Origin: Deltaproteobacteria bacterium | GTDB lineage: Bacteria; Desulfobacterota_D; UBA1144; Nemesobacterales; UBA2774 | NCBI GenBank assembly: GCA_040223695.1 | Contig: JAVKFU010000018.1 | Span: forward strand, 248,001 to 312,000 | Length of the DNA: 64,000 bases | Direction of reading: 5' to 3' | Shown: positions 9,173 through 44,437 of the stretch, piece after piece | How positions within the stretch are numbered: the stretch's first letter is position 1 | Layout of the letters: each line of letters opens with the position of its first letter | Notes under the pieces: model-generated | What the model was told of the DNA's origin: nothing | What the model saw: the letters and a program-made list of their open reading frames with translations, nothing else | Databases searched by the model: none | Program-made: the position numbers and the translations under genes

Positions 9173-10492
9173 ATGTCCGGTACCGATTCTAAGCGTATTG
9201 TTATACTCGGCGGTGGCTTTGCGGGCCTGGAAGCCGCGCAGACCCTCGAAAAAATTTTTAAGGAAAGCGACGATGTGGATATAACGCTCGTAAGCAAGGA
9301 TAATTACCTTATCTTTACCTCTATGCTCGCTGAGGTGGTATCGAGCAGTATCGAGGCCAAACACGTCGTTATCCCGCTCAGGGAATGCTTGAATAAGACC
9401 AACTTCAAGGAGCTGGTCGTCGAGGATATTGATCTCGCTTCAAAGACGGTTTCCTGCTACCATCTGGATACTTGTGAAAGTTTCACTCTCGATTACGACT
9501 ACCTCGTTCTGGCAATGGGGTCCGTTACCGGTTACCACGGGGTCGAGGGGGCGGAAGATAATTCTTTTCCTCTGAAAAATCTCGCCGATGCCATGGTGCT
9601 CAGGAGCCATGTTATAGATATGTTCGAAATGGCCGAGCTGGAACAGGACCATGACGTAAGAAAAAAGCTCCTGACCTTCGCCGTAATCGGAGGCGGGTAC
9701 ACGGGTATAGAGGTGGCCGCTGAACTAAACGATTATCTGGATTCGAGCCGCAGGTTTTTTAAGCATGTGAAACCCGGTGAGGTTAAAGTGGTTGTGATAG
9801 ATCCCGGAGACAGAATAATGCACGAAATGAGCGAGGGCCTCGCCGATTACGGCCTGAAACTACTTAAGAAAAGGGACATGGAGTTCCGCTTGAAGACAAG
9901 GATCGGCAGAGTCACACCTGACCTGGTGGAGACAGCTGAGGGGGAACAGATAGAGACTCACACTGCAATCTGGGCTGCGGGCACGTCCCCTCAGCCGGTC
10001 GTTGCGAAGCTCCCGTGCGCGGACAAAAAGGGCAGGATAGAGGTAAATGAATTTATGGAGGTGCCCGGCTATCCCGGAGTATGGGCTCTGGGTGACTGCG
10101 CCGTTATTCCCGACCCGCACACGGGAAAACCGTATCCGCCGACCGCTCAGCATGCCACAAGGGAGGGGAAAAGGGTCGCCTACAACGTCGCGGCCGCAAT
10201 AAGCGGTAAAGACGGGGACAGAAGACCCTTTATATACAAAACTCAGGGCATGCTCGCCCCGCTCGGACACAGGTCAGCGGTGGCAGAGATAAAGGGGCTC
10301 AAATTTTCCGGATTCTTTGCCTGGTTTTTGTGGCGCTGTATCTATTTAGGGAAGATGCCCGGCTGGGACAGAAAAATACGCGTAGCGATAGACTGGTTCC
10401 TGGATATATTTCTACCGAAAGACCTTGTGCAGCTTAAATTTCTGATGAGACCCCGCCGCTCAGGGGCGACGACCGGCGCCGACAAGAAGTGA
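9173..10492 (+). CDS. ndh: Type II NADH:quinone oxidoreductase (NDH-2), copy 1
   Basis: This 439-residue flavoprotein oxidises NADH and reduces membrane quinone without pumping protons. It has two Rossmann loops, LGGGFAGLEAA near the N-terminus for FAD and VIGGGYTGIEVAAEL near residue 168 for NADH. A GVWALGDCAVIP motif contacts FAD. The C-terminal 70 residues are rich in aromatic and basic residues, as expected for the membrane-binding helix. GGAGGAGGG precedes the start. Its stop codon directly abuts the stop of the convergent cytochrome b gene, with no base between. A second NDH-2 lies at 50946-52268. Confidence 0.92.
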   Translation: MSGTDSKRIVILGGGFAGLEAAQTLEKIFKESDDVDITLVSKDNYLIFTSMLAEVVSSSIEAKHVVIPLRECLNKTNFKELVVEDIDLASKTVSCYHLDTCESFTLDYDYLVLAMGSVTGYHGVEGAEDNSFPLKNLADAMVLRSHVIDMFEMAELEQDHDVRKKLLTFAVIGGGYTGIEVAAELNDYLDSSRRFFKHVKPGEVKVVVIDPGDRIMHEMSEGLADYGLKLLKKRDMEFRLKTRIGRVTPDLVETAEGEQIETHTAIWAAGTSPQPVVAKLPCADKKGRIEVNEFMEVPGYPGVWALGDCAVIPDPHTGKPYPPTAQHATREGKRVAYNVAAAISGKDGDRRPFIYKTQGMLAPLGHRSAVAEIKGLKFSGFFAWFLWRCIYLGKMPGWDRKIRVAIDWFLDIFLPKDLVQLKFLMRPRRSGATTGADKK

Positions 10493-40307: not shown

Positions 40308-41093
40308 TTACTGCTTATGTGAGCTGTCTACCTCCGCCCCGTCCGGCTTCGCAAATACCGAAGGGTCGGGATTTTCTTTTTTGAAGGTCACGTTCTCAAA
40401 TAAAATCGAACCCCGCGGCTCACTCCCCGGCATTCCGTCTTTCCAGTCATAAAGCACGATTTTCTCCGGGACCATAAGCCCGTCCTTTTCCTGCCACTTC
40501 TCGTAAACCGCCGCGTGCCGCTCAAGCGCATCAACCGGTTTTCCGCCCGTGAGAGCGGGGTAGGTGACTATGTAGTGGACGAGCTTCAGCGTGCCCGTGT
40601 CCTTGTCTATATAGGCTACGTAATTGTCATCCGGGGTATCTCCGACACCCTTATCATAAGTAACCTTAACAACTTTATATTCCTTTCCCTCAAGCTCTTC
40701 CGTGCCGAGAGATTCCAGGTTCACGCCGGGGTCGGCGAAGAGAAAAGGAAGTCCGAAGAAGTAAAAAGGGGTCGAGGAATAAAACCTTGCGGGAAGCGGA
40801 AGGGCGTCCGTGCCGGGTGTGATCCACGCGTCAGCCCCGTCGAAGCCGACTTTATACCCATCGCCCGTTATGAGCACTTTACGGGAGTCGAGGTCGATGA
40901 GCTGATGGTCGGTCAGACCTCCGTCCTGGCCGAACCGCCACTTCATATCGTATTCGAGTGTGCCGTAGCTGTTGAATGTATCGAGGCCGCCGTGCGCCTG
41001 TAACGATTCCTCCATCTGCGCGAATGATATGAAAGAAACGCTCAAAGTGAATATTAAAGCTGAAATTATGTATTTACCGATACCGGTATTCAT
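40308..41093 (-). CDS. Exported protein of unknown function, DUF6503/LolA-like
   Basis: The 261-residue protein has a signal peptide (about 1-25, ending SFAQ). The mature part begins SLQAHGGLDTFNSYGTLEYDM and continues with many short strands, such as GYKVGFDGADAWIT and NYVAYIDKDTGTLKLVHYIV. This is the pattern of DUF6503-type proteins, which share the open barrel shape of LolA-like lipid carriers. I assign the family from memory only. It may bind a lipid or other hydrophobic ligand in the periplasm. AGGAGGAGC precedes the start. Confidence 0.68.
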   Translation of the reverse strand: MNTGIGKYIISALIFTLSVSFISFAQMEESLQAHGGLDTFNSYGTLEYDMKWRFGQDGGLTDHQLIDLDSRKVLITGDGYKVGFDGADAWITPGTDALPLPARFYSSTPFYFFGLPFLFADPGVNLESLGTEELEGKEYKVVKVTYDKGVGDTPDDNYVAYIDKDTGTLKLVHYIVTYPALTGGKPVDALERHAAVYEKWQEKDGLMVPEKIVLYDWKDGMPGSEPRGSILFENVTFKKENPDPSVFAKPDGAEVDSSHKQ

Positions 41094-41404
41094 GTTGCTC
41101 CTCCTGTCTTAGTAACACAATTTTATGATGCGCCGTTTTGAATACTGCAAACACGACAAGGATACACGATATGCCCGGATTCCTCGGCATCCGCCCCGCT
41201 GGCATTCACTTTCATGAAACCCTGCTCCGGTAAACTTTCCCATTCGGATCTCTCAAACCTGACGGCTCGGAAAACAAAAGACTGCATATTATAACTAGTC
41301 AATATCTAAAGAGGGTTTTAATCCGAAATTAATGTGTTACTAAAGGTATTCCATGTGACGGCAAAATGCTGTAGAATAAGATAAAAAAGTGGAGGATGAA
41401 CGGA
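41094..41404. other. 311-base intergenic region between divergent genes
   Basis: The region separates the LolA-like gene (minus) from the double-cysteine-domain gene (plus). It carries the plus promoter listed at 41349-41377. On the minus strand TTTGCA and CATAAA are 18 bases apart near the gene start, which is weak. Nothing else was recognised. Confidence 0.35.
41349..41377 (+). promoter_or_regulatory. Possible promoter of the double-cysteine-domain gene
   Basis: TTCCAT (41349-41354) is followed after 17 bases by TAGAAT (41372-41377). The predicted start of transcription is just before GGAGG at 41391-41395, nine bases ahead of the chosen ATG at 41405. Confidence 0.4.
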
Positions 41405-42124
41405 ATGAACTATTTCCCCGGCGCAACTTTTACGTTTTTTACATTATTGATGGCGGCTATAATAGCAGGATCACCTTCGGCGCAGGAACAAAACGCTGAT
41501 TCGATTCCGTATGAGACGGCTCAGGCCGAGACTATAGAGGAGGCGCTTGAGGTTGAGATAGTTGATATCGAACCGGAGGCCCAGCGCCTGTACTGCGCGC
41601 AGTTGTGGTCGAGACTCTACGAAAGGCAAAAAGCCGAAATTATCGTTACTACGAGGGGCGAGTACGATGAGGTCGCGATATTCAGCTGTCCGGACTGCAG
41701 CCTCGAAGAGCATTTTGTGAAGCCTTTCCTGGAGTCCGAATACCGGGGTAAAACGGGGCTTATGCGGTTGTCGGAGTGCGGTTTTCACAAGGCTATATTT
41801 AAAGGAGCCAGAGGGCTTCAGGAAATAGTCGTCGAAGTGCCTCGGGTCTTTCCCGATCCGAACAGAATCGTATGTATCAACGACTGGAGCAGGCGATATG
41901 AAAAGGACTACCCCGTTGTGCAGATTTCTTCGAGGGGGGAGTTTAACGAGACTATCGTATTTAGCTGCCTTTACTGCGCCTCCCGGAAGTCGTTTGTCGC
42001 TCCGTTTCTGCTCACGGTACATGAGGGCAAAACCGCGATGGAGCGTATGAAGCAATGCGGATTCAAAGAGGTCGTTTTCACCAACCCCTCGGGCACCAGG
42101 GAAGTGGTAAGGGAAGTGCGCTAG
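41405..42124 (+). CDS. Secreted protein with a duplicated four-cysteine domain
   Basis: I know no family for this 239-residue protein. A signal peptide (about 1-26, ending PSAQ) is followed by an acidic linker and two tandem domains. Four cysteines sit at the same places in each: C64, C95, C98, C125 and C157, C188, C191, C218. Every pair is exactly 93 residues apart. Shared blocks are FSCPDC and FSCLYC, then SECGFHKAIF and KQCGFKEVVF, plus RGEYDEVAIF and RGEFNETIVF. The CxxC in each could hold metal or a disulfide. The ATG at 41405 is chosen because GGAGG lies nine bases before it; the ATG at 41396 touches GGAGG. Partner and role are unknown. Confidence 0.75.
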   Translation: MNYFPGATFTFFTLLMAAIIAGSPSAQEQNADSIPYETAQAETIEEALEVEIVDIEPEAQRLYCAQLWSRLYERQKAEIIVTTRGEYDEVAIFSCPDCSLEEHFVKPFLESEYRGKTGLMRLSECGFHKAIFKGARGLQEIVVEVPRVFPDPNRIVCINDWSRRYEKDYPVVQISSRGEFNETIVFSCLYCASRKSFVAPFLLTVHEGKTAMERMKQCGFKEVVFTNPSGTREVVREVR

Positions 42125-42215: not shown

Positions 42216-42446
42216 GTGGTCGGCGTTGGAACTTTTCCCTTCGGGTGGGTAAGAAGTATGGAGGGGGACAACTGGCAGATAATCTGGGATCCTAAAACGG
42301 AAGCGGTTTTTGCAAAGGGGGCTTCATCCGGGAAGGTGATTCAGGTAGGGAAGTCCTCCACGTGGGAGGACGCAAAAGTTCTGGCGGATAATATAATCGA
42401 GCATCCCGAAAGCCTTTTGTCAAAACTCTCAGAGGGGTCTGGATGA
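42216..42446 (+). CDS. Small hypothetical protein
   Basis: This 76-residue protein has no signal peptide, no membrane helix and no cysteine. It shows WQIIWDPKTEAVFAKG, then a helix WEDAKVLADNIIEHPESLL. I recognise no family. GTG 42216 is preferred because GGGGG lies about nine bases upstream; TTG 42210 is too close and ATG 42258 lacks a ribosome site. It sits 91 bases after the double-cysteine gene and could share its transcript. Confidence 0.55.
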   Translation: MVGVGTFPFGWVRSMEGDNWQIIWDPKTEAVFAKGASSGKVIQVGKSSTWEDAKVLADNIIEHPESLLSKLSEGSG

Positions 42447-42613: not shown

Positions 42614-43516
42614 ATGAGATTCATGGAACAGGAGCTGGTCTCCATACCCTTTAACCGGAGCAAGATAGACGGGCTCTACTATCACAGTACAATCAAGGAT
42701 GAAAGACTCGCCGAAAAGGACGCGGTGGTAATACATATACACGGTTTTCTGGGGAATTTTCTCGACGGAAGCCAGCGTTTTCTCCCTCCTGTGCTAGCGG
42801 AGGGCGGATACTCCTCACTCGCCATAAACACACGCATGGCGAACTTCGGACTTTTCTTCGGGTACGGCCTGCTTGACGACACGATCCCGCAAATCGACAG
42901 GGCTGTCGAATATCTGGTCGAAATGGGATACAAAAAAATAATTCTGTCCGGATACAGTCTCGGCACATGCATTGTTCTAAGGTACGCGTATCTCAGAAGC
43001 GACGCCGAGAAGTACCCGCACCTCAAGGGAGTTATAACTCTTGCGGCGCCCTATTCCATGCCGGACTCGATCCGCCGCAGGTGGAACCGGTGGGGCAGCG
43101 AGCCCGCGTATGACGAGGTCTACCAGGAGTCAAAGGAGATACTTAAACCCGATCCATACAATTCGAAGAATGACCGCACTATTCTGATATACAAGGCGCG
43201 CGGTGACACCTATCAGCCCTGGCATACGGAAATCTACACTTACAAGACCTGGTGGTTTCTGGCGGGGCCCGAGGCCGAGACTGCCAAGGCTTACCTGAAA
43301 ATGGGGAGGATCAAAATACCGATACTTCTCATTCAGGGCTGGTACGACGATGTTGTTCAGCCTGAGGAAACACAAGATCTGGCTCAGATTGCGATACAGG
43401 CCGGCAACCAGGACGTATCAGCGTTCTACGTGAACGCCGGACATACGTTTGAGGGAAAGGATGAAGAACTGGGAGATATAATTGTAAGGTGGCTTGACAG
43501 AAGATTCAAAGAATAG
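42614..43516 (+). CDS. Alpha/beta hydrolase, copy 1
   Basis: The 300-residue protein is an alpha/beta hydrolase. HIHGFLGNF carries the oxyanion loop, GYSLGT the nucleophilic serine, GWYDDVVQPEE the acid aspartate and NAGHTF the histidine. No signal peptide is visible, so it is probably cytoplasmic. The substrate is unknown; the UPF0017-like layout with a helical cap between serine and aspartate is compatible with an esterase. The next gene is a paralogue beginning 15 bases downstream, so the pair is co-transcribed. Confidence 0.87.
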   Translation: MRFMEQELVSIPFNRSKIDGLYYHSTIKDERLAEKDAVVIHIHGFLGNFLDGSQRFLPPVLAEGGYSSLAINTRMANFGLFFGYGLLDDTIPQIDRAVEYLVEMGYKKIILSGYSLGTCIVLRYAYLRSDAEKYPHLKGVITLAAPYSMPDSIRRRWNRWGSEPAYDEVYQESKEILKPDPYNSKNDRTILIYKARGDTYQPWHTEIYTYKTWWFLAGPEAETAKAYLKMGRIKIPILLIQGWYDDVVQPEETQDLAQIAIQAGNQDVSAFYVNAGHTFEGKDEELGDIIVRWLDRRFKE

Positions 43517-43531
43517 ACCGGGAACTCCGAC

Positions 43532-44437
43532 ATGGTTTCACGACAGAGAAGATTAATGAGCTTTCAGGCCGAGGACGGGTTTCTTATCAATGCGGTGCTG
43601 GTTTCGGGGGAATTTGAAAGGGCAGAGGAGCTTTACGAAGCGCCCATAGTGCTTCTGGTGCACGGGGTTCTGGGGCACTTCCTGGCAAGGGGCACACCCA
43701 GACTACTTCCAAACGCTCTCGCAGAGCACGGGTTCAACTCACTTTCCATTAACACGCGTATGGCGTTTACGGGGCAGATATTCGGCGGGGGTATTTTCGA
43801 TGAGGCCGTGATGGACATAGAGGCCGCCGTAAAGGTTCTGGTCAAGGAAGGTTTCAGGAATATTATTATCCTCGGATGGAGTCTCGGGGCCAATATAAGT
43901 GTTTATTACGCCGTGAAGGAGCCGGACCCTAATGTGAGGGGGCTCATTTTGGAAGGCTGCTCCTCCTCACTCCCGGAATCCAATAAAAACAGGTTCGACA
44001 AGTGGAACAGCATACCGTCCTATGACCATATTTATGAGATCGCAAAGAAGGTTCTGAGGCCGGACCCCGTTACTACCAGGAATGACAGAGTATTTATCGT
44101 GTACCGAGCGTGGGGGCCTACTTTTGATCCCTCCGACGTGGAACTGTTCACATACAGGACATGGTGGTTTATGAGAAGTCCCGAAGCGTATAACGCCAAG
44201 ACCAAAGAGATCATATCCGGAGTGAAGGTGCCGGTGCTGTTTATTCACGGGAAAGAGGATTACATAGTCGGCGAGGAAGAACCCCGCGAGCTTGTCCGTA
44301 TATTAAATGAGTCCGGCAACGAGGAGGTCGAACTTAATTTCGTCCCGGGCGCGCGGCATGACTGCATGGAGAACCCCGCGTTCACGGTCGATGTTCTTGC
44401 CGGATGGCTTTCCAGATTCGAGAAGGCGTATCAGTAA
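43532..44437 (+). CDS. Alpha/beta hydrolase, copy 2
   Basis: The 301-residue paralogue of the preceding protein has VHGVLGHFLARG for the oxyanion loop, GWSLGA for the serine, HGKEDYIVGEEE for the aspartate and GARHDC for the histidine. The blocks NTRMAFTGQIFGGG and TYRTWWF align with NTRMANFGLFFGYG and TYKTWWF in copy 1. Identity looks moderate, so the duplication is old. The ribosome site is weak, and ATG 43556 is an alternative start. The next gene starts ten bases after its stop. Confidence 0.85.
   Translation: MVSRQRRLMSFQAEDGFLINAVLVSGEFERAEELYEAPIVLLVHGVLGHFLARGTPRLLPNALAEHGFNSLSINTRMAFTGQIFGGGIFDEAVMDIEAAVKVLVKEGFRNIIILGWSLGANISVYYAVKEPDPNVRGLILEGCSSSLPESNKNRFDKWNSIPSYDHIYEIAKKVLRPDPVTTRNDRVFIVYRAWGPTFDPSDVELFTYRTWWFMRSPEAYNAKTKEIISGVKVPVLFIHGKEDYIVGEEEPRELVRILNESGNEEVELNFVPGARHDCMENPAFTVDVLAGWLSRFEKAYQ

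Follow-up and report, generated by a model that had tools for sequence, protein, structure and literature searches.

The window, a 64,000-nucleotide stretch of DNA, encodes a protein of 239 amino acids which contains two copies of a four-cysteine domain and which, judged from sequence, belongs to a family that is real, unnamed and seen so far in a single bacterial order. This four-cysteine family is under strongly purifying selection, with dN/dS values of approximately 0.06 to 0.1. We infer, with moderate confidence, an exported periplasmic twin-domain module with a predicted compact fold, in which the cysteines would form two disulfides per domain and whose role would be one of binding or scaffolding. 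The gene and its parts are as follows (window coordinates):

41391 to 41395, forward strand: Shine-Dalgarno-like GGAGG, 9 nucleotides upstream of the ATG at 41405, read from the sequence
41405 to 42124, forward strand: gene of the two-domain four-cysteine protein, translated as 239 amino acids and a stop codon
41405 to 41482, forward strand: signal-peptide-like N terminus, approximately residues 1 to 26, from hydropathy and inspection by eye
41558 to 41845, forward strand: domain 1, residues 52 to 147, with C64, C95, C98 and C125 (profile E value 2e-41; alignment; AlphaFold2)
41837 to 42121, forward strand: domain 2, residues 145 to 239, with C157, C188, C191 and C218 (profile E value 1.6e-40; alignment; predicted secondary structure as in domain 1)

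The duplicated domain and its cysteines

The longest open reading frame of the gene begins at position 41396, yet the location of the GGAGG element favors the ATG at 41405 as the start. Peak hydrophobicity of the encoded protein falls within its N-terminal 26 or so residues, as calculated with our own hydropathy script rather than a dedicated predictor, and similar signal-like N termini were observed throughout the relatives by the same script and by inspection; based on these N termini, the twin four-cysteine protein is probably Sec exported and periplasmic. The genome of the window (G000, 3.03 Mb) harbors a single copy of the gene. An artefactual open reading frame was ruled out by dN/dS values well below 1 and by the existence of full-length relatives.

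Self-comparison of the protein at an offset of 93 residues yielded 34 identities across 94 aligned residues, against 15 identities at the runner-up offset. When its residues were shuffled 3,000 times and the highest-scoring of 50 offsets was taken each time, the mean was 12.4 identities and no shuffle exceeded 20, thus ruling out a chance repeat. A sequence-only reading of this DNA had claimed four cysteines recurring as a second four with an exact 93-residue period, and both the period and every cysteine position are borne out by the translation. Its further claim, that no indel has entered either domain since the duplication, applies to this protein and to all two-domain relatives (the distance between the first cysteines of the two domains is exactly 93 in nine of nine such proteins) but not to the single-domain relative L013, in which one extra residue lies between the first and second cysteines. 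The pattern is, consequently, C-x30-C-x2-C-x26-C across the 25 domains of the 16 proteins identified, with x31 replacing x30 in L013 only. All four cysteines are invariant in 25 of 25 domains, and the free variation among orthologues that the same reading had named as the counterevidence to look for was not seen.

Cysteine is absent from the mature chains of all 16 proteins outside the domains, the few additional residues being located at positions 11 to 26 within the signal region. When the 25 domains are aligned, thirteen columns are invariant (R, C, W, Y, G, F, C, C, F, L, C, G, and F, in that order), and the lack of histidine, aspartate or glutamate among them argues against an active site of the hydrolase type. 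The composition of this invariant set appears core-like and suggests no catalytic function.

Relatives, selection and library searches

A profile search identified the domain in 16 of 58 genomes of the phylum, including the genome of the window itself and HRbin37, all of which belong to one order; the 42 noncarriers include family f8. In an exact-seed scan of 84,980 species genomes, for which seeds were taken from the window protein alone, only HRbin37 was matched (BEIN01000015.1), although such a scan is insensitive, as the seeds vary even among relatives of the same order, and the family may also occur beyond the phylum. Genome sizes range from 1.2 to 4 Mb in the carrier order and are approximately 1 Mb in f8, a family of the same class.

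Two domains are present in nine of the 16 proteins, that of the window included (each of the six f1 proteins, together with three from f4). The search for single-domain relatives which the sequence-only reading had proposed recovered the remaining seven, distributed among families f2, f3, f4, f6 and f7. One single-domain relative (L065, positions 9643 to 10323, the same gene as L014, positions 1495 to 2175) carries a C-terminal tail of approximately 90 residues with loose repeats of the RSIDPV/RSLDPV/ESLDSV type.

Within family f1, dN/dS over both domains was 0.056 to 0.105 for the three pairs whose dS is not saturated (among G006, G002 and G010), and similar values were obtained for pairs involving the window gene, for which dS is near saturation. 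The second domains of f1 occupy a long branch of the domain tree (support 100/99) and share 34 to 37% identity with their own first domains, despite which they retain the cysteines and their spacing. Those of f4 lie nearer to their own first domains (43 to 59% identity), and a single clade of second domains was not rejected (p-AU 0.37), so that the doubling may have arisen once or more than once.

No match of weight to the window protein was found in Pfam or NCBIfam, and none was found among PDB sequences with either the protein or the family profile as the query. PHROGs produced nothing credible, the best match (E value 0.034) being to a single stretch of a family of unknown function. The best Pfam match among 18 family members was Zn_ribbon_RPB9 (E value 0.0028), in one member; the resemblance to Tim15 was weak (E value 0.43), and other weak Pfam or NCBIfam names (YycE-like_C, TnsD and CofG) each appeared in one or two members. 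A phage or plasmid origin was rejected on the basis of the PHROGs result, a tblastn search of phage records with a chance-level best E value of 0.3, and the absence of matches among viral contigs (searched with a four-row alignment seed) and plasmids.

The suggestion of the sequence-only reading that the family may be undescribed thus holds for Pfam, NCBIfam, PHROGs, PDB sequences and Foldseek searches of the PDB and BFVD (detailed below), none of which offered a credible match to a known cysteine-rich family; "undescribed" here means absent from these libraries. We regard it as an orphan family and not as a novel type of system. Its 25 domains with 13 invariant positions, its natural occurrence with either one domain or two, and its fixed gene neighbor (see below) render it clean and testable, and it points to a probably exported protein specific to one lineage of a phylum that has received little study. 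Orphan exported families are not rare, which limits its importance.

The conserved downstream gene

The features downstream of the four-cysteine gene are as follows:

42219 to 42446, forward strand: small gene of the FPFGWxR...DNWQxxWD family (approximately 70 to 78 amino acids), directly downstream, from alignment; start codon uncertain
42614 to 43516 and 43532 to 44437: two adjacent alpha/beta hydrolase-like genes, beyond the small gene

In each of the 15 relatives, the small FPFGWxR gene is located directly downstream of the four-cysteine gene and shares its strand, at a distance of 5 to approximately 460 bases, and the alpha/beta hydrolase gene pair lies next to it in 10 of these 15. Its product is tryptophan rich, with twelve invariant columns (pattern FPFGWxR...DNWQxxWD...SxWxEAKxxAD), lacks a signal-like start, and has no Pfam, NCBIfam or PDB relative and no credible PHROG match. 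Upstream, at positions 40308 to 41093, the window encodes a divergent signal-bearing gene whose product matches DUF6503 (E value 2e-8).

The FPFGWxR family was detected in 36 of the 58 genomes of the phylum, none of them in family f8. Both genes occur together in 16 genomes, while the four-cysteine gene is found without the small gene in none of the 58. The regions read in genera g2 and g10 contain the FPFGWxR gene without the cysteine domain, beside unrelated genes whose products we take, by resemblance, to be a VWA-domain-like protein, an AsmA-like protein and endonuclease III. The small protein is, therefore, independent of the cysteine protein, whereas the converse was never seen. That the two work together, with an undescribed domain and fold, confined to one order of an uncultured phylum, serving in sensing or binding outside the cytoplasm and the FPFGWxR protein as its cytoplasmic partner, is a proposal to which we assign a low probability.

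Predicted fold, proposed role of the cysteines and comparison with known systems

The domain was modeled with AlphaFold2 from a shallow alignment of four sequences (both domains of the window protein and of its HRbin37 relative), and the compact CxxC-bearing fold that the sequence-only reading had named as supporting evidence was returned with a mean pLDDT of 87.9 and a pTM of 0.80. The predicted order of elements is helix (residues 6 to 23), strand (29 to 33), strand (39 to 44), helix (49 to 59), helix (67 to 73), strand (78 to 83) and strand (88 to 93), with the first cysteine in helix 1, the second at the end of strand 2, the third just before helix 2 and the fourth immediately beyond helix 3. 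The full-length model displays this order twice over at a lower confidence (pLDDT 70.1, pTM 0.46). Foldseek produced nothing convincing for the domain model (best E values of 0.21 in the PDB and 0.094 in BFVD) or for the full-length model in the PDB (best E value 0.15); the probability did not exceed 0.38 among the matches listed, and the ranks mix unrelated folds. With the PDB and BFVD as the structures searched and a shallow alignment behind the model, this outcome is compatible with a new fold without demonstrating one.

We propose that the protein comprises two copies of an alpha+beta domain of approximately 93 residues, each with four predicted strands and three predicted helices, whose four cysteines would form two intradomain disulfides that hold together helix 1, the turn bearing the CxxC and the point at which helix 3 ends. 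The even number of cysteines, all of which are inside the domain with none elsewhere in the mature chain, is best accommodated by two disulfides per domain. These would be introduced by the DsbA/VKOR-type oxidative folding pathway of the carrier genomes, in which VKOR is encoded by 14 of 16 (the two misses being 59% and 88% complete) and DsbA-family proteins by 15 of 16 (the single miss being 74% complete), so that disulfide formation appears to be available. As DsbA and VKOR are also encoded by genomes without the four-cysteine gene, their presence permits disulfides rather than pointing to them. The domain itself would act as a rigid, noncatalytic module, and binding or scaffolding is suggested as its most economical role, with the doubling in some lineages possibly conferring extra reach or avidity.

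Counting against disulfides is the position of the CPxC/CxxC at a strand-to-helix turn, a placement that metal knuckles and redox sites typically show as well. One metal ion per domain, most likely zinc or iron, could be held by a site combining the CPxC knuckle at this predicted turn with the helix 1 cysteine and the one that stands where helix 3 ends, and the full invariance and strict spacing of the cysteines in 25 domains would suit such a site. Metal knuckles do figure among the weak library resemblances (the Zn_ribbon_RPB9 and Tim15 matches described above), but these derive from single members and are probably due to the CxxC alone; moreover, a second CxxC knuckle is absent from the domain, and the protein appears to be exported to a compartment with DsbA/VKOR-type oxidation, where Cys4 metal sites are uncommon. 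We regard metal binding as less likely than disulfides, of which it is the main rival. Alternatively, the CxxC may represent the redox-active pair of an exported electron carrier or thiol-disulfide enzyme, with a structural or resolving disulfide formed by the remaining cysteines, a reading that draws on the thioredoxin-like placement of the CxxC between a predicted strand and helix and on the frequency of CPDC or CPEC in first domains and single-domain relatives. It appears improbable given that the inner residues are freely variable among the second domains (CLYC, CLNC, CYYC and CSGC), that no thioredoxin-type family was matched in Pfam or NCBIfam, that no thioredoxin structure was present among the 50 best Foldseek rows, and that the strand which comes after the CxxC helix in the thioredoxin fold is missing from the predicted order of strands.

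Combinable with any of these cysteine roles is the possible, if doubtful, reading that the domain is a diverged member of a known fold, whether periplasmic ring-building, BON-like or pilotin-like. Low-ranking Foldseek rows for the domain include the pilotin AspS and an alpha-lytic protease prodomain-like protein (TM scores of 0.49/0.50), and those for the full-length model include DolP, PrgH and GerM; however, E values never fell below 0.09, and unrelated folds, the low probabilities and the low confidence of the full-length model noted above all tell against kinship.

Ring-building and BON proteins were reached through the low-confidence full-length model (DolP, E value 0.59; PrgH, E value 0.71; query TM score of at most approximately 0.2) and were absent from the 50 best Foldseek rows for the domain model. 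The AspS pilotin (4ftf; E value 0.54, query TM score 0.37) and the prodomain-like protein 4hlb (E value 2.9, TM score 0.49) are, like the domain, small alpha+beta proteins of similar size, although these values and identities of 9 to 12% are no evidence of kinship. With zinc ribbons and rubredoxins (PF02150 and PF00301), the domain has in common a CPxC-type turn and four cysteines, though a match was confined to the one member in 18 already mentioned, with none in the others or in the window protein; it differs in possessing one CxxC, its other two cysteines being single and approximately 27 to 31 residues away. Thioredoxin-like exported oxidoreductases share with it a CxxC between strand and helix and a probable periplasmic site, while the new family is set apart by the lack of a family match, a different predicted topology and unconserved inner CxxC residues.
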